Shown here piece after piece: positions 32,151 to 52,263 of a DNA stretch of 52,263 nt (the stretch's first letter is position 1; each line of letters opens with the position of its first letter). Location of the stretch: positions 1 to 52,263 of the IMG/VR virus record IMGVR_UViG_3300028025_001613, one strand, 5' to 3'. A program made the translations under genes and the position numbers. Source of the DNA: a virus. The notes beneath the pieces are model-generated. The model saw nothing but the letters and a program-made list of their open reading frames with translations, made no database searches and was not told where the DNA came from.

Positions 32151-32241
32151 AATACCTTATGTAAAGGTTAGTATTAAAGATAATAAAGTGGTCTATGCAA
32201 ATAATAGAACAGTCTACGAAGACTCTAAAAACAAGAGATAA
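32083..32241 (+). CDS. possible small basic overlapping protein
   Basis: A 52-codon frame from ATG 32083 (or 32086) to TAA 32239-32241. It overlaps the previous gene by 68 bases and the radical SAM gene by 47. The part filling the gap reads like protein (FKIPYVKVSIKDNKVVYAN), with a Lys/Arg cluster before it. This explains an otherwise empty 44-base gap, but the heavy overlaps leave it uncertain. Confidence 0.35.
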   Translation: MMKNLDKNFLTQDTSLKKRKRFKIPYVKVSIKDNKVVYANNRTVYEDSKNKR

Positions 32242-33049
32242 TGGAAGAAGCTCGGACGCTATTAGTCCGAACTTCATCTATGGATGCCTAGGTGGCTGTA
32301 TGAAGTCCTACTGCTATGTAGGCAGATATAACCACGATAAAGTATATGTTAATAAGAATACTGATGATATTCTACACTCTGTTTATGATTGGCTAGTAGA
32401 TAAACCATGGCCTAAAGTTCCTAATCAGTGTGATGAAAAGTATTATACTATAGATATAGGCTGCAGTACTGATGTAGCTTTGATGACTAAATATTATAAT
32501 TGGCAAAAGGTATTTGACTGGTTTGACTGTCATGTAATGGCTAAGTCTACTTTTGCCACTAAATATCCTAGTATGTTTCGTCCTAATGAAAAGTTTGTAT
32601 TCCATCCTGATAAACACCGTATCCGGGTAAGCTTAATGCCTCAGATATACTCTGATGTATTAGAACCAGGTACAGATAGTATAGCTCGTCGTATAGCTGA
32701 AATTCCTAGGCTACAACAGTATATGGAAGTACATATTAACTTTAGTCCTATCATCTATACAGATGGCTGGCTAGGTGAATACCGTAAATTATTCCAACAG
32801 CTTAAAGATGCAAGTATAGATGTTAAGTGTGAATGCATATTCCTTACACATAATATACAGCAGCATCAGCGTAACTCTGAGATTGTACAAGATCTAATAT
32901 GGAGACCAGATATTCAAGAGTCTAAAGACTCCCAGTATGCTCCTGATAATATTAGATATAAACACACTCTAAAAAGAGAAATGGTAAAAGATTTTGTATC
33001 TTTATACTCAGAATTTTTTAATCCAGTTAACATTAGATATATATTTTAA
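32195..33049 (+). CDS. radical SAM protein, spore-photoproduct-lyase-like
   Basis: This 284-residue protein has an N-terminal cysteine cluster GCLGGCMKSYCYVGR with Cys31, Cys35 and Cys40 (CX3CX4C, not the usual CX3CX2C). Following strands resemble a radical SAM barrel (YTIDIGCSTDVALM, VHINFSPI, CECIFLTHNI). I recall proteins with this GG-C-x-x-SYCYV pattern in other phages, annotated as photolyase-like. It may repair UV lesions or modify nucleotides using SAM and an Fe-S cluster. Family confident, reaction not. Confidence 0.72.
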   Translation: MQIIEQSTKTLKTRDNGRSSDAISPNFIYGCLGGCMKSYCYVGRYNHDKVYVNKNTDDILHSVYDWLVDKPWPKVPNQCDEKYYTIDIGCSTDVALMTKYYNWQKVFDWFDCHVMAKSTFATKYPSMFRPNEKFVFHPDKHRIRVSLMPQIYSDVLEPGTDSIARRIAEIPRLQQYMEVHINFSPIIYTDGWLGEYRKLFQQLKDASIDVKCECIFLTHNIQQHQRNSEIVQDLIWRPDIQESKDSQYAPDNIRYKHTLKREMVKDFVSLYSEFFNPVNIRYIF

Positions 33050-34828: not shown

Positions 34829-34951
34829 ATGAAGCAATGGTTTAATAGAATTAAAAAGTATAATTGGACATTTATAATAGTATGGGTGTCCATATTTACA
34901 CTATCATTTACATTGTGGTGGCAAATCTTTAAAATATTAAAAAACTTATGA
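34829..34951 (+). CDS. 40-residue single-TM protein
   Basis: ATG 34829 to TGA 34949-34951, starting 1 base after the previous gene and overlapping the thioredoxin-like gene by ATGA. The product has a basic N-terminus (MKQWFNRIKK) and a Trp-rich TM helix (FIIVWVSIFTLSFTLWW). Tight coupling on both sides makes it a credible small membrane protein. Confidence 0.55.
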   Translation: MKQWFNRIKKYNWTFIIVWVSIFTLSFTLWWQIFKILKNL

Positions 34952-35208
34952 GTAATTTAGAAGTAAAGACATTTGTAGAAGACTGGTGTGCTACCTGTCA
35001 AAAAGTAGCACCAGCCCTTATAAGCTTAGAAAATAAGTATAATAGACAATTGTCTTGGCAGAATTTAAGTATTGATCAGCATGGTGATGCTAATGCTGTT
35101 AGTGCGGTACCTACAATAATCTTTGTAAAAGATGGAATAGAAGTAGAAAGAATGGTTGGAGAAAGACCTCCATTCCTCTATGAAGAAACTATTCTTAAAT
35201 ACTTGTAA
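34948..35208 (+). CDS. thioredoxin-like protein
   Basis: An 86-residue protein with the thioredoxin fold in miniature: the active site DWCATCQKVAP (Cys14, Cys17), a central strand, and the cis-Pro segment SAVPTIIFVKDG. It would reduce disulfides, possibly for a nucleotide-reducing enzyme encoded elsewhere or to protect cytosolic phage enzymes. No signal peptide. Shorter than typical thioredoxin. Confidence 0.82.
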   Translation: MSNLEVKTFVEDWCATCQKVAPALISLENKYNRQLSWQNLSIDQHGDANAVSAVPTIIFVKDGIEVERMVGERPPFLYEETILKYL

Positions 35209-36847: not shown

Positions 36848-37498
36848 ATGCCTTATAAACCTATTTGTGGTGTATATAAAATTACTAATCTAATAAATAA
36901 TAAGTACTATATTGGTAGTGCTATAAGTATTAAATATAGATTAAATACTCACAAAAGACTTCTTAGAGATAATAAACATTTTAATGCTCATTTACAATCA
37001 TCATATAATAAGTATGGTCTATCTAATTTTATATTTGAACAATTAGAAGTTACTACAAAAGAAACTATGATTGAAAAAGAACAATATTGGATAGACCATC
37101 TTAATGCTACAAATCATAAAAAAGGCTATAATAAAAGAAGTATTGCTTCAAGTAATCTTGGTGTAAAAGCTTCTGAAGAAACTAAAAGAAAATTAAGTTT
37201 AGCTCATATTGGTCATAAGAGATCAATAGAAGCTCAAAATAAAATATCAGATTCTCAATATAAAGCTGTTGTTCAAATGGACTTAAGTGGAAATATACTT
37301 AACGAATTTAGATCTATTAAAGAAGCAGCTTTATTAGTTAACTGTCAAAGGAGTGGTATATCAATGTGTTGTAAAGGTATTATTAAATCTCATAATGGAT
37401 ATTTATGGTGTAAAAAAGAAAATATAACAAACTTTAAAATACCTATTTTAAATCATAAATTCATATCTACTAAAGTAAAACAAAAATGGAAAAGTTAA
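36848..37498 (+). mobile_element. GIY-YIG homing endonuclease gene with NUMOD3/NUMOD1
   Basis: The 216-residue protein begins with a GIY-YIG nuclease domain (GVYKITNLINNKYYIGSA, then the Arg and Glu segments to about residue 95). Two NUMOD3-like repeats follow (SEETKRKLSLAHIGHKRS and SIEAQNKIS), and the C-terminus is a NUMOD1 DNA-binding module (QMDLSGNILNEFRSIKEAA). It is free-standing, with no intron features seen. It is more AT-rich in codon use than its neighbours by eye, fitting a mobile gene. Its end overlaps the next gene by 13 bases. Confidence 0.88.
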
Positions 37499-37929
37499 AA
37501 ACTTGCCTCTATATAGATGACCAGCGTACACCAACTGAAACTCTTCCTAACTATGACCCTTGGCATGTAGTTAGAAACTATGATGAGTTTGTAGAATGGA
37601 TAACTAAGAATGGAATACCAGACTTTATAAGCTTTGACCATGACTTAGCTGATGAGCATACTAATGATTATTTTAGTCAGCTAGCTCAGCATGGATATCA
37701 ACATCCTAAGTATACAGAGTATAAAGAGAAAACAGGTATAGACTGTGCCAATTGGTTAGTAGAATACTGTCAAAAGAATAACGTTAAGTTAGGACGCTGT
37801 GCAGTACATTCTCATAATCCAGTGGGAGCAGCAAATTTACATAGCCTATTAAATGGTTTTAAACGCCATATGGGCTGGGATGAGGATTGTTATATAGGCA
37901 GAGTGCCATTCACTACAGAAAATAAATAA
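37486..37929 (+). CDS. cyclic-phosphate processing receiver-domain protein
   Basis: This 147-residue protein matches the receiver-like cpREC/cPPIA family: LYIDDQRTP near the N-terminus, FISFDHDLADEH in the middle, CANWLVEYC and VHSHNPVGAANL near the end, with conserved Asp/His residues. The family is predicted to process cyclic phosphate ends of RNA or cyclic nucleotides. Its original start appears displaced by the homing endonuclease inserted upstream; the present ATG lies in the end of that gene. Confidence 0.8.
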   Translation: MEKLKTCLYIDDQRTPTETLPNYDPWHVVRNYDEFVEWITKNGIPDFISFDHDLADEHTNDYFSQLAQHGYQHPKYTEYKEKTGIDCANWLVEYCQKNNVKLGRCAVHSHNPVGAANLHSLLNGFKRHMGWDEDCYIGRVPFTTENK

Positions 37930-41100: not shown

Positions 41101-43454
41101 TCAAAAAACTCTCTAGACTCTTTTCTATACTGACGTTCTATTTTAGCAATTTCTAACTCCTCTCCTGTTTTAGGATTACCTTCAGCATCTGTTAAAGAAG
41201 CTAATTGAGAGTATTGTCTCCATAAAAGTTTCTTCTGTTCAGAGACTTCATCATAGAAGTTCTCATCATAGTTTTGACCATCTAGTTCCTTAACTGTATT
41301 TATGATAATCTGCTTTCTTCTATAAGCTTCCTTTCCTAATTCTGACTCATAGATCTTTTCCCTTTCATAATATTCATTAACATACTCTTGATGAAAGTAA
41401 TCTCTTCTATGCTTTCTCAAATCTTTAAGGATCTGATCAGCTAAAACCTCATCACCTTTCTGTAAAGCAGCATCATACTCATACTTTAAACGAGATGTTT
41501 CTAATGAAGCGTCTTTAAATCTATCTGTAAATGACCAAACATCTTTAGTCTCAAACTCTCCTTTTTCATTCAAGAATGGAACCTTTTCTACAGTGACTAA
41601 TGTTTTCATTAGTTCTGTATAGTTACTACGATTATATCCAGCAGCTTTTAATAATGGCTCCATTTCACGAAGGAAGTCATTCATATTAATCTGAGTCTGA
41701 GAATCAACATCATTGTAAGCGTTCTTTAAGAACATTGCAAATCCACCAATAACAGGATCAGGAGAATTAGTATAAGCTTCTAAGAAAGCTGAATAAGCAT
41801 TAGTATCTCCGGCTCTACCAGTAATAAGATCATTGATCTTTTTCTTAGTAAGTCTCATAGAGTCCCACTTCTGCTGCATATCTTTAACCTTTTGATCAGA
41901 TCCAGATATAGCTTTTAATCTTTCAATCTCATCAGAGAAGTGTTTGTCAATACCTTCAGCTAAAGGGGTTAAGCTTTCAAATAATACACTATCTACATTA
42001 TTTGCATATATCTTATGCACCTTCTTTGTAGTAGTATCTATAGTATATTTCAAGCCGGCAACAATTCTTCCAAACTCAGAATTTGTAGGTAAACCATTGG
42101 CAGCCAATCTATTATTAGTCTCATCTATAAAATTACTCCAGTTACGTAATAGCAAATCATAATAAAATAAATTACTAATCACTTCTTTACTTTCACCTTG
42201 AGTAGCTAACTGATCAATATGATTACTTATACTAACAGTTAATTTATCTAAACGAAGTATAGAGTGTACAAAGTTTTGGGTAGTCTTTTGTCTTATTGTA
42301 AACTGATCAAATATCTTCTGAAGCTCTTCATTAATTTCTGTATTATCTAATGTAGACTTTAACTCTTGTAACTGACCTCTTCCTGTTTCATCAACTAAGA
42401 ACTTTCTAGCTTCAGAGTAGTTCTTATTTTCTTTAATACGTCTTATATGGTTAGTAACTACATCATAGAAACGTTGTACAGTTTCAGATATAGCTAAGTA
42501 TTCTACGTTCTCTAGCTCATTAGTAAAATTAGTAATATCACGCACATAGTCTACATAGTCTTGCTGACTAATCACCTCGGTATTTATATCAAACTTATCT
42601 GATCTAAGCATATCTGCTAACTGAGATAGACTAGTATTAGCTGATAACTTTTCTACTTTAACTGCTGTACCAAAAGCTTTACGTAACATTTGCTTAAAAG
42701 CAAATAATAACTTATTAATAAAGTCTTTAAAACCTTTACTTGTTTGTTCAGCAGCATTATTAGTAGCTAAGGCCCTTACTAACACCTCTTGTCTAAATTG
42801 AGCAGATGTATCTTCTAAATCAGGATAGAGATTTCTTACATCAGATATAATGCTTTCTCCCTCAACTGTAGCAGATAAGTCACTATATATCTTATTAAAC
42901 AATGTAGGGTTTTCTATAAAGATAGATGCAGCTAAAGGGTGAGCATACTCATGCAAAACATTATCTGCAGTAAATCTTCCATCTAATAAATACACCTTAC
43001 CGTTAAAAAAGAAAGCAGCCTCTCCAGTCCAAGGATTAGTTGTATCTCTTGTTAACTTTCTAGCATCCTGAGCATTGATGACACTATAAGGTATACCAAA
43101 GGTAGTAGCTAATTGGTTAGCTAATGCAACTGCTGCAGTGTTACCAATGTCTATCTTTTGATCAGCTTCTGAAAATATAGGATTAGTCTCATCTACCTTA
43201 GTATCTAGACCTACAATATATTTAATAGATGGTTCTCCATTGGAGTCCTTTTCTAAATCAGAATCCATTACTTCCCAATAACCATACTTATCTTTAAAAG
43301 TTTGAGTATATGGCTGAGCCCAATATCTTAAAGCCTTTTCAGTATTAGGCTGAATAGCTAAAATATCTTTATAGAGGATTGACTCCTTACCATTAGGAGC
43401 CAACACCTTTTCAATGTCATTAGTTTCTTTATTACGAATTATGCTACAAGCCAT
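38106..43454 (-). CDS. giant crAss-like virion protein with zincin motif
   Basis: A 1782-residue protein whose N-terminal 300 residues hold a zincin-type metallopeptidase motif, VLHEYAHPLA (HExxH at His168), followed by a Glu-bearing helix (RQEVLVRALA). The middle is long, helical and highly charged. The last 500 residues contain hydrophobic segments (SLASFGFFSFNVLPSAL, VVLFSMLGLVFGY) that could enter membranes. In crAss-like phages, such giants next to the RNA polymerase are packaged cargo ejected with the DNA. It starts 3 bases after the polymerase gene. Proteolysis might process virion proteins; not shown. Confidence 0.8.
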   Translation of the reverse strand: MACSIIRNKETNDIEKVLAPNGKESILYKDILAIQPNTEKALRYWAQPYTQTFKDKYGYWEVMDSDLEKDSNGEPSIKYIVGLDTKVDETNPIFSEADQKIDIGNTAAVALANQLATTFGIPYSVINAQDARKLTRDTTNPWTGEAAFFFNGKVYLLDGRFTADNVLHEYAHPLAASIFIENPTLFNKIYSDLSATVEGESIISDVRNLYPDLEDTSAQFRQEVLVRALATNNAAEQTSKGFKDFINKLLFAFKQMLRKAFGTAVKVEKLSANTSLSQLADMLRSDKFDINTEVISQQDYVDYVRDITNFTNELENVEYLAISETVQRFYDVVTNHIRRIKENKNYSEARKFLVDETGRGQLQELKSTLDNTEINEELQKIFDQFTIRQKTTQNFVHSILRLDKLTVSISNHIDQLATQGESKEVISNLFYYDLLLRNWSNFIDETNNRLAANGLPTNSEFGRIVAGLKYTIDTTTKKVHKIYANNVDSVLFESLTPLAEGIDKHFSDEIERLKAISGSDQKVKDMQQKWDSMRLTKKKINDLITGRAGDTNAYSAFLEAYTNSPDPVIGGFAMFLKNAYNDVDSQTQINMNDFLREMEPLLKAAGYNRSNYTELMKTLVTVEKVPFLNEKGEFETKDVWSFTDRFKDASLETSRLKYEYDAALQKGDEVLADQILKDLRKHRRDYFHQEYVNEYYEREKIYESELGKEAYRRKQIIINTVKELDGQNYDENFYDEVSEQKKLLWRQYSQLASLTDAEGNPKTGEELEIAKIERQYRKESREFFEWVPTPGLFESSLRRMEQTLVDDGIAAGSPEFIEARDKWIKNNTVVAYTQQFFDERNKVLNQLRAFMESLPQQTRDMIDSSTEMEEMLDMATGFRDQDGQIIGTDITQKSKDKAKTLQEKINEKKKSLYSGLSKAETEELSDLFNKKDQSINTRLSPEDSARMNELVNKGITIKLNLMQKAELNRIYQKLGELQSKEATDYYVDIANNWMEKLDLPLLDNETVQGLLQPNSYVTLFNESAEYEAWFKANHVSKEVFDAELGTTKTVYERIFIWNRTRPNDPDSFETITLADGEKILGKPNLSYFYRSVKKDYRTQKEVGVTVDNKGNWLPKTVAEGAVDDKYINPAYEKLRRERPAAFAVLEKMKQFHLKFQEGLPRESRLYLQIPRYRKPRLEYLQGTSTDKEASKAKEWMRGVKQMFFKANDDYEDGLNFNPEQLVYTNMFDEEIKKVPITGLYNLELDQVSMNIGDSMLKYMHSGLRQKKLVELNPFAQALKTSIADPDNAVKDMSKINKWMFQKTGRVSYLTKKGESVRASAIQRLYEREFEGVNQAGWFANSPALLKFQSQVMSLASFGFFSFNVLPSALKNRMGAVVQLSIEAAGSKYINYQSYLLGKPRAVKMILAHSAQLYKTGNRSLDAQLIQVFDPGQGMFDKTLGEQFGRSFASDTASLSFFMSPRKFLEVEATMEMFSGMMHHIKVEQTLNGQTKNIRYIDAWEVVNGQITLKEGIDKKYDLGGEEFNRIKNTMHEVSNRLQGTYSRMDQPEAQRYAAFRLVAFLKKFFTSMLMNRVGATRPSAALGTVTTGYYTSVLQTARDFFKYGVGNYNMMSLEEKKNFLKFVADIAHQVVLFSMLGLVFGYDGDDEDRFEKMRKRSGALNEKDFNLSGWLFNHGIVVMLGTLNETQQFSSWSQVKATGRNIIMPDAIYGVTLKQPMDFLDHLVGYMTDDKGAFYKKDAGPYSFQKQDSPKFINDAAKIFGITGSQIDPVKALKGQEFQRRK

Positions 43455-43457
43455 ATG

Positions 43458-46400
43458 TTATGAATTACAGTTTTTAGATTCTTCTACTTTTTGTTCTATG
43501 ATACTTTCTATCTCTTCATCAGTTATAGGCTGACTAGATTGGAACTCTTTTCTAAAGCCTAAATTTGACTCTGCTCCTGGGTTTACATATCCATACTTTT
43601 TATAAAGCTCAGATACTAAATATGTATAAGTTCTAGGAGCCTTATCTTTTAATACATCAATTTGAGCATCATCTTTACCCAGTATTGTAGTCAATCCTGA
43701 AGAAGGAAATACAACTTTTGCACCATTACCTAAATGATTATCAATAACTTCTAAAGCTTGATTTATAAGAGCTATATTATTATCATAAGTCTCATCTGAC
43801 CAAGATTGTGAACCACCTTTCTGTTTGATAGGTATACCAACGCTATTTCCAGCAGTCTTATAAGGAGCAGTTAACACCTCAGCAATACCATCTTGGTTAG
43901 TAGGATATACAAATATACTTTCTTTATTACTATTAATAACAGTTTCAAAAGCTTTTATCTCAGAATTAGTTCTTGGGTTATCATACACAGTAGCTTTACC
44001 AGCTTCTCTAAAATCAGATTGACCCTCTTCCATATTTCTAACAACTGTTTCTTCTGTAGTCTCTGTATACTGAATATAGTTCCTATATCTTAAACGACTG
44101 CTACTAGAATTAGAACTCCAGTTAGAATCAAACATATCAGAATACTTATCTAAAAACTCTTGAGAGATACCTTTTTCTGATACATTCTTCATTGGCTCCT
44201 CTAGTAATTTCATTAGAGTTTCTGTAGGTAGTATAGAAGATAGTGTACTTCCTGACTTATTTATACCAGCTCTTAAGTACTCAGCTATTATTAATCTACT
44301 AAAAAATTTAGATATCTCTAGATTCCTGGTCTTGTCTGCAACTTTCAATGTTCCAACATCAGATAATCTTACTAGGTTTTCGTGCAAGACATTAATAATT
44401 TCTGAATCAAGTCTATCAGACTTTAACTTTAATGTTCTAAGTTTTCTACCCTTATTCTTACCTCCCTCACCAATAAAACTAATTTGATCCATAAGCATGT
44501 ATTCCTCTTCTAACTCAGAATAAACTCTTTTTATATTCAAGAAATCATCAGCAATACTGTTCTTAGACTTAAGAATAGTATAGAAGTTAAAAGTTCTTTC
44601 TAAAGCACGGTCAGCTAGTATTTGTTCATACTCCTCTCTACTTTGCTTTTCTTTCATTGGAATTACAGATCTTAAGTATTCTCTCTCTAATACAAAGTGA
44701 GTATACTCTTGTAAGTTCTGACTTCTCTTAGGTCCCATTTGAAAGGCTCCTATATCAGTTTTAGCTAATTGTAAAGACTCATACCCTTTTCCTGCATACT
44801 CTTTTTGATCAAAGTCTAATGCAATCTGTTGAGGATCAACATACATTACACCATCTTTTACAAACGCTCCATATTTAATTTGAACCTTTTCAATAGGAAT
44901 ACTCTTATTTATAAGTAATCCTTTATACTCTTTTATGTTCTTTAGATCTATACCTTTAATATAATTCTGCATTAAATACATAGGTATATCATTTTTAAAT
45001 GCTGCTACATATTTCTCAGCATCCTCAAATGTCTTCTTATACTTATTTGTATTAATCTTATTAATTAAATAATTGTTTACAGTTTCATCTCCTCTAAGTT
45101 TCATTAATGGCTTCCATAATTTTAACTGAAAGGCTTGTACAAGGAACGACTTGATAGGAGAATCATATAATATGTTTGTAACTAAGTCAGAAGGCACTGC
45201 ATCTACAATATTTAACTTAGATATTTTACTAAGTCTTTCTTGAGCAGAAAACAATGATTTAGAAGGAGCTGTGTCTAAGTTAACTGTTAATTTAATATTA
45301 GTTAGTTTAGCCATTAAATCTTCTAATTCAATAAAGTGTAACAAAGTAGCCTTAGATATATCAGATTCTGTATTCTTGTCTTTAATGTTATTTAGTAATT
45401 CTTCAGTAGTATATTCTTTTTTATCGTTATACTTATTAATAATTCTGTAAATATCAACATTACTTACAATAATCTCTCCAGTTTCAGTTTCTCTTGCACG
45501 ACCTGTCTTTTTATCTATAGTTAAGTCATCATAGAAATTACGAATAATAAATTCTTTTCTTACATTAAATTTATCATACCCCTTTCCTTTACTGGCTTCA
45601 TTACCAGCAGCTTCATAGAAAGGACTATTACGTTTGGCTCTATCTTTAATATATTTAATAACTAAAGGTTGTGATACAAAGTAAGCAGCTGTTTTAAAGT
45701 CTACACCAGTTTCTAGTAAAAATAGCAAAACTGGTCCGGCAACATTGTTACCATTAATGTTAAAGATCCAAGCATCTTTTTCAATGTCTACCCATCCGTT
45801 CATCAATTGAGAAATTAAGTCAGAGATCTTATCTCCTGTTACAGTTTCAACATCTGATAAAGATATGTAGCTCTTACCATCCTTAGTAACAGTGTTATGT
45901 TTCATACGGATATTAATAGGACGCATTTCAGTAACAACCTTTCCGTTCTTTACTTTATATTCTTTAGTAATAGGATCTATAGGATAGTGGGTATACTGCT
46001 TTTCAAGTCTAGCTCCTACTCTTTTAAAAATAGAAGAGTATTTATTATCTACAGCACCAATACCTAACGTTCTCTTACCGATGTTATTAGACTCATGTTT
46101 ATATAAGTTGTATCTAGGTTCTAAAGTACGAGTAGGACTAATCTTAGAACCTTGTTCTTTAGTCTTATTAGCTAAAGGATTATACCCTTGAATGTTTTCA
46201 ATAGATAACTCATCAGCTACACCTTTAACAATATCTGTATCGTTAGGACGGATAAGAGCATCAAAGTTATCAGGGTGTTCTAAGATCTGACGAATAGTTT
46301 CAATTATTTGATTTTCAACAGCTTTAACACCCTTACCAGTTGCATAAGTAGCTTCTTCATTATCATATTTATAATTAGGTTGGAAAATAGTTAACTTATC

Positions 46401-49400
46401 AATATCAAAGTCAGATCCTGACTTAGCTACAATTTCAGTTGGAGGTACAATAATAGACCCTGCTTCTTCAGGAAGAAACTCATAGACTTCCATGAACTCC
46501 ATAGAGTTAAATCCTTGCACAGGAATACGTACACCTACCATAGTAATAAGCTTACGGTTATCATTTTTATCTAACCACTCATCTTTCTTAAGCACTTCAT
46601 TCAAACGCTCTATTGTACCAATCTTTTTGCCATCAGTATGCTTAAGTTCAAGAAGTTTGTAGTAATCACCCTTCATTGCTATTTTTACTTTCATAGCAGA
46701 GGTAGATCCATTTTTACCTTTACCTGGACGGTAAGTAGGTAAGTCATTAGTACCATATCTAGCTAATTGATCTTCTGTAGGATTTTTAAATCCTGATTCA
46801 AAACCAGCACCTGATACTTGAACCAATTGCTCACCGTTCATCTTCTGACGAACCAATCGTTTTACTACAATAGAGTTTAATAACTTTTCTATCTTCTCAG
46901 CATTAAGACTGAAGCTTAAGTCACTTTGTAAACCAAAGTTTTTAATAAAGTCTATATCATGTTCAGGTAAACCTTGACGATCTAACTCTTTCTGTACAAA
47001 GTTCATAAGACTCTCTGTACTTCCAGATAGGTTTCCTTTAGCATCCTCTTTCCAACCTGCCTGTTCTAATAATTCTTTTTTCTTGCCTTCTTGTAAAGTA
47101 TCAAGTAATTTTTCAAATCTAGATACAAGCAATTCAAAGTCTTTAGATATAGGTATCCCTTGCTTAAATAAGTCATTGATAATCAACGTTCTAAGCTGGG
47201 TAGAGAATATAGTTTTATTCTTCCAAGTAGATTGGATATCAACTTGATCTTTTAAATATTGTATAAATACTCCGTTCTTAGTGTACTCAGCCTCTCCTTC
47301 ATTCCAAGACTTAACAGATCTAGTAGCATAGTCATCATTCTCATATAAAGAATCAGGCTTTCCGTTAGATGTAATAGTAGCCATCTTACTTCCAGACTCA
47401 AACAATGCGTAGTCTACACCTTGTTTAACTAGATTATCATGAAGAGTTTCCATGTTAGTTCCTTTAACCATAGATGGAATAAGAGGTACTAATGAAAACT
47501 TATGAAACGCCTGCATATGTAACTTCTCAGTTTTTAGAGGACCAGCATATTGAAACTTCTTTGTAGGAAAGAATTCAGTAATCTCAGCAGGATCTACAAC
47601 TTCATCATTAACAATCTTATTATATAGCTCGTTCTGCTTATCAGACCAAGCTCCCTCTAAAAGAGATAATATTCTATATGAGTCAAATGTAATCCATCCT
47701 TGAGCATCTCCTTCTGTCATTTCTTTATAAGGAGATAAAATCTTTTCAGCCTGCTCTTTTGTATATTTACCAGAACTTACTAAAGCATTTACATACTCTT
47801 CAAAGTAAGCTGACTCTACTTTGTTATCTTTAAATACTACAGAATTTAATATACCATCAAATGATCGTTTAGCTGCTCCAATCTTATTAGCGTATGCTCT
47901 ACCTATATTATTAATAAACATAGATGTAGATTCACTAGAAGAGAAAGATCTACCTGTAGATCCAATAGCAGCATTACGTTTATGAAATTCTTCTTTAACA
48001 TGATTGTACATAGCTAAGTCTCCATATAGTACAGAGACAGCTTCCATATTATGGATTAAAGCATTTACTGTAAATGATCTTAAAGCAATCATAGTAAGCT
48101 CTTGTTCCTTACCTTTACCTATATTTAAACCTGTATCTTTTCTAACTAAGTTGCTCAATGATGGTATACCCTTACCTCCAAATAATATCTCTTCAGACAT
48201 ATAAGGAAGAGTAACAAAACTTTCAAAGTTCTCGTCTACTAAATTATTAATATAGTTATTAATATCATTAGAAATTCTTTCAGCAAACTTAGGATCATCC
48301 AAAATACTTAAAGAATCTTCTTCATTAGCTACAGCTATTAAATCATTCTTAAGACTATCTGATAGTATATCATCAAACATTGTAAACGTCAAACCTCTCT
48401 CATTGAATCCTGGAACATTAGCCGCTTTACCTGACTTTACTATAGCAATACGTTCCATCTCAGCAGCAATCTTTGGCTTAAGAAGAGATACTGTAGCATT
48501 ATGACTTTTAACTTTATCTGCAAAGTAACCACTACTAATATATAAATGATTAGCATTCTGATTAAACTCGGTATCTACTTTAGATACACTAATACCATAA
48601 GCAGTAGATTTAGACGCATGTCTTGGAAGCTCCATAACACCACGAATTAGCATGGTATGAATATCCATTAAAAACTTACTAATAGGATCTAGCTGAGAAG
48701 TCTTAATACCTGTTGAGGCACTTTGAGCACCAACTATATTCTCTACTACATTCTTAATACCGTTTAAGTTATCAATGTTTATAGTAACATTAGTAGCTCC
48801 ATAAGAAGCTTTACTAGTCTTTCTTTTATTCTTATTACTTAAGTCAAATACTTTACCTACAGGAATATGAAACAAACTATTTAACCAGATAGAATACTTA
48901 GCAAAAGGATTCTTTCTATAGTCTAAATGAGACATATGAGGTTGACTAACCATTTCATTATAGTCCTTGTCTTTATCATTAAGTTCTGATAGCACCTTTG
49001 TACTAGTATTGTTTAATGATAGGTCATACTCTCTATCTCCTGCAACATTCTGCACAGAGTTATTACTATACTTGCCAGAGTCAGTAGCTTCTATTTCTAA
49101 AATCTTAGAAACACTACTAGACTCTCCTTTGTATACAGACTCTCCATCCATCTTTACTTCACTACGTAAAGCTGAAATAGGATTAGTAGTCTTTATATTA
49201 TACTTTTTAAGATCTTGAATTCCTTTATATAGATAATATACAGCAGTATAGTTATCGTACACTTTCTGTTTAACAGCTCTATTATCTGTTAAATAAAATC
49301 CTATTGCTCTTAAGAATTGGAATGCCTTATCTTCATCAATAATATTCTTAGTACCTCTTCCAAAAAGATCATTGTAAGGAAAAGCTTTAAGAATTGCATC

Positions 49401-52263
49401 TATGTTTAATTCATTACCCTGAGTTCCAGCTATAACAAAATTGCTATTCTTAATTCCTTGGAATTGTGAAAGAAACGTATCTTCTACTTGTCTAGTTGTA
49501 GGACTAGCCTCAGTAAATTCTATACGGAAACCACCAGTTTCAGCTGAATTAATAATACGAACTTCTTTAATTGGTACACGATATACACTAAAGTCACGTA
49601 CAAAACTGATCCACATCTTTTGATAAGGCCAATCTTTAGCTTGTACATGATCCATAGGATTACCTAAACGATCAACTAAATACTTTATCTCAGGATATTT
49701 AGCTGATGCTTCTATAAGCTTGTTATACATCTGAACATCAGAAGTAGCTCCTTGAACAGCATTAATAATAATCCCCCATGTTCTATTAAAGTCAGCTAAC
49801 TTAGCTACACCTAAACTATTTAATTTAGGCTTACCTGTTTTAGAATCAATTGCTGGAAGACTTTTTACTAAGTAAACACTTTCACTACTAGCTAATTCTC
49901 TAACAGATAGTTCATTACCTTTTCTTTCAAAAACATTTTTACCAAAGTTTTCTTCAAGTTGTTTTTCAGTTAGAGTTAAACCATCTTCTTCTTCAGCTTT
50001 ATTAACTTCTGCATCATCTTCAGCTTCTTCTATCTCTATAGGACTCATTTCAGAGTATCTATCTTCAAAAGTAAGATAGGAAGAACGTTTCTTATGGAAA
50101 GCCAATGTACCATCAGCTTGTTCATTTCTAGAAACCTTTTCAAATTCTCCCCAGTTATCTAATGCAAATTGAGCAATACGTTTAGCATTCTCTGATAACT
50201 CTGTATTATTTAAAATAGTTTTAAAATCATTTCTGATCTTTTCATATAATGGTCCTAGTAATTCAGGATTAGTAAATATAATCCCTACACTTTTATCATA
50301 TGAACTTAATGTAGATGCTATTAGAGAATCCATAGTTTCTACAAGAGTCATTGAATCTTGATAGTTTAATCCTTCAGCTTTTGTATCTAGACTCTGTATT
50401 CCTTTATTAAGTAATGAAAACTGTACATTCTTAATAGAAGGAGTATAGTCATTTATATTACCTACATACAACTTGTCATAAAGTTCTTGTATACTTTCTG
50501 TAGCCAAAGCATCTTCAGCAATTGATTTTAAACTAGCTCCTTTAAACACTTGCTTTAAGAAATTCCATATACGTCTAAAAATAGTATTACGAGCAGGCTT
50601 ACCGTTTACTACATAGTTACCATTAGCCATAGCGTATTTACGGAAGTCTTCAGCCATAAACTCTTCTAACTGTAAATCAGTAGCAGCATTAAACTTAACT
50701 GTTCTACCATCAGCAGTAGTAAAACTACCAGCTAACTTTCTAGCTTCAGAATACAATTCAACCTTTTGTTGTTTAGTTAAAAACATCTGAGTAAACGCAT
50801 GGAAAGCTTCATGATAAACATCAGTAAAGTTAGATCCAGCATATAAAACAATACCTGAGGTTGTCCATTCACCAACAGCATTACTATTAACTATGTTAAA
50901 TAAAGTCTGAAGTTCTACAAACTTTGAAAGAGGACTGTTTTTAAACCACTGCTCAGCTAAATCAATTTGTTCTTTAGTAGCTTCACTAGATAATAATAAG
51001 GATTTCTTTAAAGAAAAGTCTTTACTATCTAATAAACTTTTAAACTCATCTATAGAATTATCTGTAGGAGTAGATTGTTCTATTGTAGAAATCTTTTCCG
51101 CTTTACTTACTTTTAAGCCAAACAATTTAGTTTGAACTTCTGTAGTTGGAAAAAGAGTGTTATAAGCATTTAAGCTTACTAATTTACCTTCAGCATTCTT
51201 AGATAGATAAGTGTTAAAGTTTGCACTTAAGAAGTTATTATAACGTTCTTTCTGCAACTGCACCTTACCATCTAAATTAACAGGCATCTGCATAAAAGAT
51301 CCGATAAGATCTTTATTTACATTAACCGTTTGCTCTTTAAGGTTATTTACAAATGTCTCACGACCTGCAATATCTGTAGTGTCTAACTCCTGCTCTCCTT
51401 GTTTTACAAACACTTTACCATCACGCTCAAATACTTTAGTATCATTGCTAAAAACAAACTGCTTTAAAACATTAATCTTATCAATATTAGATTGTGTAGT
51501 ATCATTAAATAATAACTCACCTAAGTTTTCAGCTAGGTTAGTTATATCACCAAACTTTGGTCTTTGAATAAGAACTGGATAGTCATAACCTGGTACATTA
51601 AAATATACACCACCAGAAACAACTACACCAGAAGTTTGCTTAGATACCCATGGGTTAAATCCTTTTTCTAATTGTATAGAAGAGATGGGACTAGCTTTAC
51701 TAAAGTCTTCTTTAATATAACCACTTCTACCAGGAGTAATTGAAAACACAAGAGACTCACCAGGATTATTAATTACAAAACTACGAGCAGCATCTAATAC
51801 ATCTATCTCATTAGCTCTCTGCTCTTGTATAGTTTTAATATCTTCTTCCGTCTTATCAGACTTACTTATTAATTCTTCAACTGTTTGTACTCTTGGTATA
51901 TAACGTTGACCACTTCTATCTGTATAAACATTTCTTAACTTACCATAAGCTAATCTACCACCTTCTTCTTTAGTAGTAATATTACCTTCTTGATCAAAGT
52001 ATAATATATTTCCAGCCTTATCAGTGTATACTAATGCTAATCCTGTAGCATTATGTTTAGCTTTATTCTCTTCATTCTGATTAATATATGCTCTATCAGA
52101 TACATATAACTCATCTTCAGCTATTGTATTAGCTTTTACAAGCTTCATATAAATACCTTTAACGTTATTTAATTTAACGTTATCAGCAGTTTGAAAGTTG
52201 TATTTATCCATTAACTCATTAAGCTTTCTCACTACAGCATAGTAAGTCTTCTTAGCTGGATCT
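43458..52263 (-). CDS. giant zincin-RNA polymerase fusion (virion RNA polymerase), partial at the window edge
   Basis: At least 2934 residues are visible. A GTG at 52232 could start the frame, but coding continues in frame to base 52263 (..KKTYYAVV.. before the GTG), so the true start lies outside. With numbering from 52232: a zincin HEAFH at 474-478, then a long helical region, then a double-psi-barrel core with RIPVQGFNSMEF and the metal motif GSDFDIDKL (Asp1941, 1943, 1945; bases 46398-46412). This matches the single-chain RNA polymerase of crAss-like phages (phi14:2 gp66 type), related to QDE-1. It would be packaged and transcribe early genes. Confidence 0.88.
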   Translation of the reverse strand, partial: DPAKKTYYAVVRKLNELMDKYNFQTADNVKLNNVKGIYMKLVKANTIAEDELYVSDRAYINQNEENKAKHNATGLALVYTDKAGNILYFDQEGNITTKEEGGRLAYGKLRNVYTDRSGQRYIPRVQTVEELISKSDKTEEDIKTIQEQRANEIDVLDAARSFVINNPGESLVFSITPGRSGYIKEDFSKASPISSIQLEKGFNPWVSKQTSGVVVSGGVYFNVPGYDYPVLIQRPKFGDITNLAENLGELLFNDTTQSNIDKINVLKQFVFSNDTKVFERDGKVFVKQGEQELDTTDIAGRETFVNNLKEQTVNVNKDLIGSFMQMPVNLDGKVQLQKERYNNFLSANFNTYLSKNAEGKLVSLNAYNTLFPTTEVQTKLFGLKVSKAEKISTIEQSTPTDNSIDEFKSLLDSKDFSLKKSLLLSSEATKEQIDLAEQWFKNSPLSKFVELQTLFNIVNSNAVGEWTTSGIVLYAGSNFTDVYHEAFHAFTQMFLTKQQKVELYSEARKLAGSFTTADGRTVKFNAATDLQLEEFMAEDFRKYAMANGNYVVNGKPARNTIFRRIWNFLKQVFKGASLKSIAEDALATESIQELYDKLYVGNINDYTPSIKNVQFSLLNKGIQSLDTKAEGLNYQDSMTLVETMDSLIASTLSSYDKSVGIIFTNPELLGPLYEKIRNDFKTILNNTELSENAKRIAQFALDNWGEFEKVSRNEQADGTLAFHKKRSSYLTFEDRYSEMSPIEIEEAEDDAEVNKAEEEDGLTLTEKQLEENFGKNVFERKGNELSVRELASSESVYLVKSLPAIDSKTGKPKLNSLGVAKLADFNRTWGIIINAVQGATSDVQMYNKLIEASAKYPEIKYLVDRLGNPMDHVQAKDWPYQKMWISFVRDFSVYRVPIKEVRIINSAETGGFRIEFTEASPTTRQVEDTFLSQFQGIKNSNFVIAGTQGNELNIDAILKAFPYNDLFGRGTKNIIDEDKAFQFLRAIGFYLTDNRAVKQKVYDNYTAVYYLYKGIQDLKKYNIKTTNPISALRSEVKMDGESVYKGESSSVSKILEIEATDSGKYSNNSVQNVAGDREYDLSLNNTSTKVLSELNDKDKDYNEMVSQPHMSHLDYRKNPFAKYSIWLNSLFHIPVGKVFDLSNKNKRKTSKASYGATNVTINIDNLNGIKNVVENIVGAQSASTGIKTSQLDPISKFLMDIHTMLIRGVMELPRHASKSTAYGISVSKVDTEFNQNANHLYISSGYFADKVKSHNATVSLLKPKIAAEMERIAIVKSGKAANVPGFNERGLTFTMFDDILSDSLKNDLIAVANEEDSLSILDDPKFAERISNDINNYINNLVDENFESFVTLPYMSEEILFGGKGIPSLSNLVRKDTGLNIGKGKEQELTMIALRSFTVNALIHNMEAVSVLYGDLAMYNHVKEEFHKRNAAIGSTGRSFSSSESTSMFINNIGRAYANKIGAAKRSFDGILNSVVFKDNKVESAYFEEYVNALVSSGKYTKEQAEKILSPYKEMTEGDAQGWITFDSYRILSLLEGAWSDKQNELYNKIVNDEVVDPAEITEFFPTKKFQYAGPLKTEKLHMQAFHKFSLVPLIPSMVKGTNMETLHDNLVKQGVDYALFESGSKMATITSNGKPDSLYENDDYATRSVKSWNEGEAEYTKNGVFIQYLKDQVDIQSTWKNKTIFSTQLRTLIINDLFKQGIPISKDFELLVSRFEKLLDTLQEGKKKELLEQAGWKEDAKGNLSGSTESLMNFVQKELDRQGLPEHDIDFIKNFGLQSDLSFSLNAEKIEKLLNSIVVKRLVRQKMNGEQLVQVSGAGFESGFKNPTEDQLARYGTNDLPTYRPGKGKNGSTSAMKVKIAMKGDYYKLLELKHTDGKKIGTIERLNEVLKKDEWLDKNDNRKLITMVGVRIPVQGFNSMEFMEVYEFLPEEAGSIIVPPTEIVAKSGSDFDIDKLTIFQPNYKYDNEEATYATGKGVKAVENQIIETIRQILEHPDNFDALIRPNDTDIVKGVADELSIENIQGYNPLANKTKEQGSKISPTRTLEPRYNLYKHESNNIGKRTLGIGAVDNKYSSIFKRVGARLEKQYTHYPIDPITKEYKVKNGKVVTEMRPINIRMKHNTVTKDGKSYISLSDVETVTGDKISDLISQLMNGWVDIEKDAWIFNINGNNVAGPVLLFLLETGVDFKTAAYFVSQPLVIKYIKDRAKRNSPFYEAAGNEASKGKGYDKFNVRKEFIIRNFYDDLTIDKKTGRARETETGEIIVSNVDIYRIINKYNDKKEYTTEELLNNIKDKNTESDISKATLLHFIELEDLMAKLTNIKLTVNLDTAPSKSLFSAQERLSKISKLNIVDAVPSDLVTNILYDSPIKSFLVQAFQLKLWKPLMKLRGDETVNNYLINKINTNKYKKTFEDAEKYVAAFKNDIPMYLMQNYIKGIDLKNIKEYKGLLINKSIPIEKVQIKYGAFVKDGVMYVDPQQIALDFDQKEYAGKGYESLQLAKTDIGAFQMGPKRSQNLQEYTHFVLEREYLRSVIPMKEKQSREEYEQILADRALERTFNFYTILKSKNSIADDFLNIKRVYSELEEEYMLMDQISFIGEGGKNKGRKLRTLKLKSDRLDSEIINVLHENLVRLSDVGTLKVADKTRNLEISKFFSRLIIAEYLRAGINKSGSTLSSILPTETLMKLLEEPMKNVSEKGISQEFLDKYSDMFDSNWSSNSSSSRLRYRNYIQYTETTEETVVRNMEEGQSDFREAGKATVYDNPRTNSEIKAFETVINSNKESIFVYPTNQDGIAEVLTAPYKTAGNSVGIPIKQKGGSQSWSDETYDNNIALINQALEVIDNHLGNGAKVVFPSSGLTTILGKDDAQIDVLKDKAPRTYTYLVSELYKKYGYVNPGAESNLGFRKEFQSSQPITDEEIESIIEQKVEESKNCNS

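Follow-up and report, generated by a model that had tools for sequence, protein, structure and literature searches.

The closest described counterparts of the polymerase analysed here are phi14:2 gp66 (PDB 6VR4) and crAss001 gp50. Like it, both are single-chain two-barrel RNA polymerases with an aligned DFDID motif, large partner chains and terminal cysteines. The phi14:2 protein has 2180 aa and lacks an HExxH motif. In Suoliviridae (cr4_1, cr10_1, cr52_1 and cr1_1; 4460–4551 aa) and in cr108_1, a zincin orthologous to that of the present locus lies on the polymerase chain, whereas in Carjivirus communis the zincin ends the preceding chain, gp45, and the polymerase of gp44 is fused to the module that follows it; the order, zincin and then polymerase, is the same as here. 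GenBank entries from named Crassvirales already include a ‘putative RNAP associated protein fused to zincin protease’. In crAss001 virions many inter-subunit disulfides have been resolved, and the authors of that structure considered equal copies, six each, of three polymerase proteins (PMC10172136). No disulfide has been observed between the polymerase chains, which belong to the cargo that the crAss001 map leaves unresolved (PMC10172136).

Phage N4 provides a more distant comparison. N4 gp50 (3500 aa), likewise a giant ejected polymerase, contains an HExxH domain and is free of internal cysteines (PMC12633501), but it has a T7-like fold, carries its zincin-like domain after the polymerase, and is a single chain without terminal cysteines. 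Polyvalent proteins, in the part of Iyer et al. (2017; PMC5512222) that describes them, join a zincin to delivered enzymatic domains on one chain; the N4-like polymerases among them carry ART, lysozyme or RNase domains. Both crassviruses and N4-like phages face the problem of delivering megadalton protein cargo in the correct order through a narrow tail.

The window—the whole stretch of 52,263 nucleotides analysed here, from IMG/VR virus record IMGVR_UViG_3300028025_001613—contains a polymerase chain, R, encoded on the minus strand (Table 1). Its partner chains are designated A (upstream) and C (downstream); the A gene of the window’s own phage lies outside the window. The open frame of R comprises 2934 aa (2924 aa counted from the first GTG) and runs into the window edge without a stop; its 5′ end is beyond the window, and no start within the frame is trustworthy. 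The nearest contig (L001) encodes a complete R chain of 3252 aa with the N-terminus MACRLSDDQ, and alignment to this chain indicates that ~186 N-terminal residues are missing from the window, giving an expected length of ~3120 aa. Eighty relatives of R were taken from viral contigs, and 68 of these, with intact starts, were aligned with R itself. HEAFH and DFDID each occur once in R (at residues 474 and 1941 when counted from the GTG), against chance expectations from its composition of 0.02 for HExxH and 0.002 for DFDID, and both motifs are invariant in all 69 aligned sequences, the latter as D[FY]D[IV]D. The earlier note had seen both motifs in one chain of more than 2930 residues, with the domain order zincin, helical region, polymerase and C-terminal domain, and was right on each count. 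Its expectation that this chain would be among the longest of phage polymerases was mistaken: relatives reach 4904 aa, those complete at both ends measuring 3103–4903 aa from the first Met, polymerase chains of named crAss-like phages measure 4250–5794 aa, and P23-45 gp96 has 5002 aa (PMC10770324). A weak match of the N-terminal to the C-terminal part of R, at 24% over 130 aa and with E=0.07, was taken as chance.

Table 1. Features of the polymerase locus. Positions are those of the window; residues of R are numbered from the beginning of the open frame.
Feature	Position	Strand	Basis
Chain R: zincin, virion RNA polymerase and C-terminal tail	43458..52262	(-)	6VR4 homology
Zincin-like domain of R, residues 441-600; HEAFH 484-488 (50799-50813), EE 533-534, E538	50463..50942	(-)	conservation 69/69
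Acidic, gap-rich linker after the zincin, residues 681-800	49863..50222	(-)	conservation profile
Polymerase core of R, residues 1391-2240; DFDID 1951-1955 (46398-46412)	45543..48092	(-)	AlphaFold2 + Foldseek
DUF7831 domain within the tail of R, residues 2774-2884	43611..43943	(-)	Pfam PF25176, E=1.2e-10
C-terminal Cys codon of R, Cys2932 of 2934, sole Cys of the visible chain	43467..43469	(-)	
Chain C, RNA-polymerase-associated protein (phi14:2 g065 / crAss001 gp49 type), 1782 aa	38106..43454	(-)	profile matches
N-terminal Cys codon of chain C, Cys3, sole Cys in 1782 aa	43446..43448	(-)	
Second HExxH domain, in chain C: HEYAH, residue 168	42939-42953	(-)	conserved across clade

Homology and predicted structure both place R among the crAss-like virion RNA polymerases typified by phi14:2 gp66. 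In a phmmer search of PDB chains R matches 6VR4 (E=3.5e-23) in an alignment that pairs the DFDID segments, and a profile of the R family matches the same structure at E=2.2e-47. An AlphaFold2 model of residues 1330–2400, built from 39 sequences, has a pLDDT of 84.4 and a pTM of 0.83. With this model Foldseek ranks 6VR4 at the top (E=2.3e-31, TM 0.71) and QDE-1 second (E=1.8e-3); the T7-like fold of the N4-type polymerase was not recovered, N4 structures appearing only at E ~1. The earlier note had proposed a single-chain two-barrel polymerase on the strength of DFDID and had named QDE-1 and phi14:2 gp66 as the folds to compare; phmmer, profile and predicted fold agree on gp66, and the two Foldseek matches point to the two-barrel fold on which that proposal depended.

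With R as query, tblastn found 113 records, nearly all of them named or probable crassviruses, with 21–27% identity among the matches listed. The R gene adjoins a gene for a g065-type partner and is convergent with the replication block; the window also encodes a DNA polymerase, a DnaB-like helicase, a primase and an SNF2-like helicase. Homologues of the crAss001 major capsid protein gp32 are present on 11 of 14 relatives’ contigs (23–27% identity over ~110–220 aa) and absent from the window fragment. In the polymerase tree a 100/100 branch separates the window group, a single clade, from the Steigviridae, Intestiviridae and Suoliviridae that were sampled, and the group thus does not fall within a named Crassvirales family there. 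A scan of bacterial genomes returned a 46%-identity relative on a 3.4-kb contig labelled Bifidobacterium breve (L095), which is most likely a misbinned phage fragment.

The N-terminal part of R contains a zincin-like domain in which H484, E485, H488, E533, E534, A537, E538 and R541 are invariant in 69/69 sequences. HExxH and the downstream third-ligand motif EExxAE are also kept in named Crassvirales. A profile of the domain matches cr4_1 (E=9e-24), cr10_1, cr52_1, cr108_1 and cr273_1, in every case on the polymerase chain, as well as the C-terminus of crAss001 gp47. HExxH and DFDxD are separated by ~1430–1530 residues in cr4, cr10, cr52 and cr1 and by 1401–1687 residues (median 1499) in the window clade. 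The structural model of the domain is weak (pLDDT 64.6), and its Foldseek search against the PDB gave nothing below E=0.9. By profile, its nearest PDB entries are Pro-Pro endopeptidases, a weak match (E=0.07) in which HExxH and EExxAE line up; Pfam and PHROGs yielded nothing consistent. We regard the R zincin as a probable metal-dependent protease that would act during or after delivery. The linker that follows it lies at about the position of the gene split in Steigviridae and Intestiviridae. The fusion of zincin to polymerase noted earlier therefore stands as an arrangement, with an HExxH domain N-terminal on the same chain, but not as a novelty, given that for named Crassvirales GenBank already annotates a zincin protease next to the polymerase or in fusion with it. 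What is new here, as read from the gene layout, is the segmentation only, with its boundary upstream of the zincin: in the fused chains of Suoliviridae A is joined before the zincin, whereas in the window clade A is separate and R starts ~670–1280 residues before it.

The conservation profile shows R to be hypervariable beyond residue ~2720. DUF7831 is the only domain in the window’s tail, while those of relatives contain, alone or combined, DUF7831, a cpYpsA-type SLOG, NADAR, a 2OG-Fe(II) oxygenase, an AAA_33/zeta-like kinase, ART-PolyVal and a RecD/PIF1-like helicase. Swapped-domain tails are found in L016, L025, L027, L033, L043, L046, L055 and others; that of L046 is 2082 aa long and has oxygenase, NADAR and helicase together. 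R tails thus carry what, from their domain matches, are exchangeable effector-like domains, a feature absent from the earlier note. The swapping suggests that the delivered polymerase may also bring anti-defence or repair enzymes with it. Judged by its predicted domains, R of the relatives resembles the polyvalent proteins in having several unrelated domains and a zincin, while R of the window has zincin, polymerase and DUF7831; from the polyvalent proteins described in that part of Iyer et al. (PMC5512222) R differs by its two-barrel crassvirus polymerase.

It was during comparison of these hypervariable tails that a second regularity was noticed: each chain ended in a cysteine. All 42 non-redundant R chains of the clade have a cysteine within the first 6 and within the last 10 residues, and only 2 internal cysteines occur in their 149,643 aa. 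The upstream A chains end in a cysteine in 40/40 cases, a single one at that end. Every complete C chain begins with one (30/30) and none ends with one (0/30), internal cysteines numbering 0 in 53,494 aa. By comparison, the remaining open reading frames of the window average 1.0% cysteine, and of 208 control frames from the same genomes only 8 have a cysteine within their first 8 residues and 19 within their last 11, with no frame having both. Terminal cysteines are kept across five unrelated R endings and six unrelated beginnings of the next chain. Some loci have an extra frame, X, between R and C, with cysteines at both ends (seen in L013, L016 and L064); a cysteine start was predicted for the frame after X and then found in 9/9 loci with X. 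An exception, L028, has a start without the cysteine. A full-text literature search found no earlier report of such a terminal-cysteine rule, although other papers on crAss-like phages may mention it. As far as the literature searched shows, the rule, which had also escaped the earlier note, is unreported.

The same regularity extends to named phages. Across 24 genomes, a terminal cysteine is present at 54 of the 57 chain ends that abut another chain and at none of the 47 free ends (Fisher p=2e-26, a value that ignores the kinship of the genomes and so overstates the evidence). The phi14:2 chains follow it exactly: g067 ends in its one cysteine, g066, of 2180 residues, carries Cys3 and Cys2179, and g065 has Cys3 only. 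Where A and R are fused, as in Suoliviridae, cr108 and Fpv1, the chain has no N-terminal cysteine and, cr273 excepted, retains the C-terminal one, and C starts with a cysteine; where R and C are fused, in Intestiviridae, there is a cysteine at the start and none at the end. At the fused junctions themselves, A with R in Suoliviridae and Fpv1 and R with C in Intestiviridae, the cysteine pair is missing. Of the three junction ends that have no terminal cysteine, two have MSC at an internal Met, so their annotated starts are probably wrong. These are crAss002_33 and cr110_23009 (L088 12227-24964 and L094 12527-25780), which probably start too early, MSC lying at Met33 and Met15. Among the exceptions, the last cysteine of cr273 is 49 residues from the annotated end and that of cr10 is 10 from the end; gut crassviruses retain 2–17 cysteines in some chains. 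The rule is obeyed by the A chain of ctcc615 and by cr3, cr53 and cr60, all added after it had been formulated, and it also holds in crAss001, cr85, cr116 and cr128, in which the A gene lies on the other strand. Because the genomes share ancestry, and just four architectural changes in the whole order account for the tree, the junction counts cannot be treated as independent. Support that is independent of kinship, again from sequence comparison, is provided by the clade’s junction in a new place, the insertions of X, and the five unrelated R endings with a cysteine. As a means that uses only sequence, the rule could serve to delimit giant crassvirus chains and to mend their starts. Separately, Intestiviridae virion proteins upstream of A (L101 843-3116, L088 1532-3205 and L087 4031-4825) have RCGG near their C-termini, possibly a further terminal cysteine.

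The reading that we favour, with a probability of roughly 0.55, is that R is the central chain of an A–R–C virion polymerase complex in which neighbouring chain ends are bonded to each other, most likely through disulfides, so that ejection is ordered. A would be joined by its final residues to the initial residues of R, and R in the same way to C, the disulfides forming within or after the finished virion. The result would be one covalent string of ~5400–6600 residues, longer with the extended tails, which would be threaded in order through the narrow tail with A leading. The host cytoplasm would then reduce the links and free R to transcribe early genes. That the polymerase is delivered as such a disulfide-joined, head-to-tail string, with fusion and cysteine pair interchangeable and the reducing cytoplasm releasing the parts, is put at about even odds. 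Cysteine is entirely absent from N4 vRNAP and from gp51 and gp52, which are ejected with it, so ejected chains seem to avoid this residue, and cysteines confined to junctions need a reason. If the chains are linked through cysteines, order, stoichiometry and release would all come from simple redox chemistry.

The pattern itself shows only that facing ends need a cysteine, and the ends could instead be connected through a metal ion, a thioester, another form of ligation or a shared docking partner. This is the less likely course, although not an implausible one, given that oxidation is less obvious in anaerobic gut hosts. A single cysteine without CxxC or His pairs makes a metal site unlikely, the position of the cysteine at residue 3–6 rather than residue 1 disfavours native ligation, and a common docking partner would leave both the cysteine-free free ends and the loss at fused junctions unexplained. 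It is very improbable that the cysteines have no role in the protein and reflect inherited sequence or a stop/start signal in the DNA. The codons do flank the stop/start junction, ~20 bases apart in the window between R and C, and independent architecture changes are few; on the other hand, TGT and TGC are both in use, the rule is kept with A genes on the opposite strand, and unrelated chain ends all carry the cysteine while internal ones are nearly all lost.

The earlier note suggested that the zincin could free the polymerase after ejection, which would mean cutting its own chain in the manner of a polyprotein protease, and a comparable proposal for N4 vRNAP was made by Iyer et al. (2017; PMC5512222). 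The catalytic-type residues are invariant (69/69), the gene boundary of split lineages (crAss001, Carjivirus, crAss002 and cr110) falls ~185–215 residues past HExxH, and a cut at the acidic linker would yield the product that these lineages encode as a gene of its own. Self-cleavage is nonetheless rather doubtful: the split lineages keep the zincin on the other chain, where release in cis is unneeded, phi14:2 g066 and g067 have no HExxH, and according to PMC5512222 the vRNAP of N4, which has an HExxH domain too, enters the virion unprocessed. A better, if still tentative, case can be made that the zincin does not process its own chain and that its targets are host proteins reached on delivery, or that its role lies in encapsidation or regulation. 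Of all the domains in polyvalent phage proteins the zincin is the most frequent, and it may be an effector, and the N4 region that holds the HExxH domain is required for encapsidation, both according to PMC5512222. A second zincin in chain C and the effector-like domains of the R tails fit the same idea. The N4 parallel is weakened in that the N4 C1 domain has no detectable sequence relation to the R zincin, no N4 chain appearing in the profile search.

The C-terminal part of chain C matches crAss001 gp49 (E=2e-63) and phi14:2 g065 (E=7e-38) by profile, and a HEYAH-type domain near the N-terminus is also present in phi14:2 g065 and cr4 gp27. Elsewhere in the window a small thioredoxin (34948-35208) has a WCATC motif and a Pfam match at E=3e-11; thioredoxin as a general disulfide-reducing partner was considered and dropped, as Pfam matches occur in only 3 of 20 crassvirus records. 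A spore-photoproduct-lyase-like protein (32195-33049; Pfam SPL, E=6.5e-11) is unexpected in a phage early region. A GIY-YIG homing endonuclease (36848-37498) lies between the replication and polymerase blocks, and a cREC_REC domain (37486-37929, E=2e-21), a receiver-like domain that Pfam links to cyclic-phosphate processing, adjoins the polymerase block.
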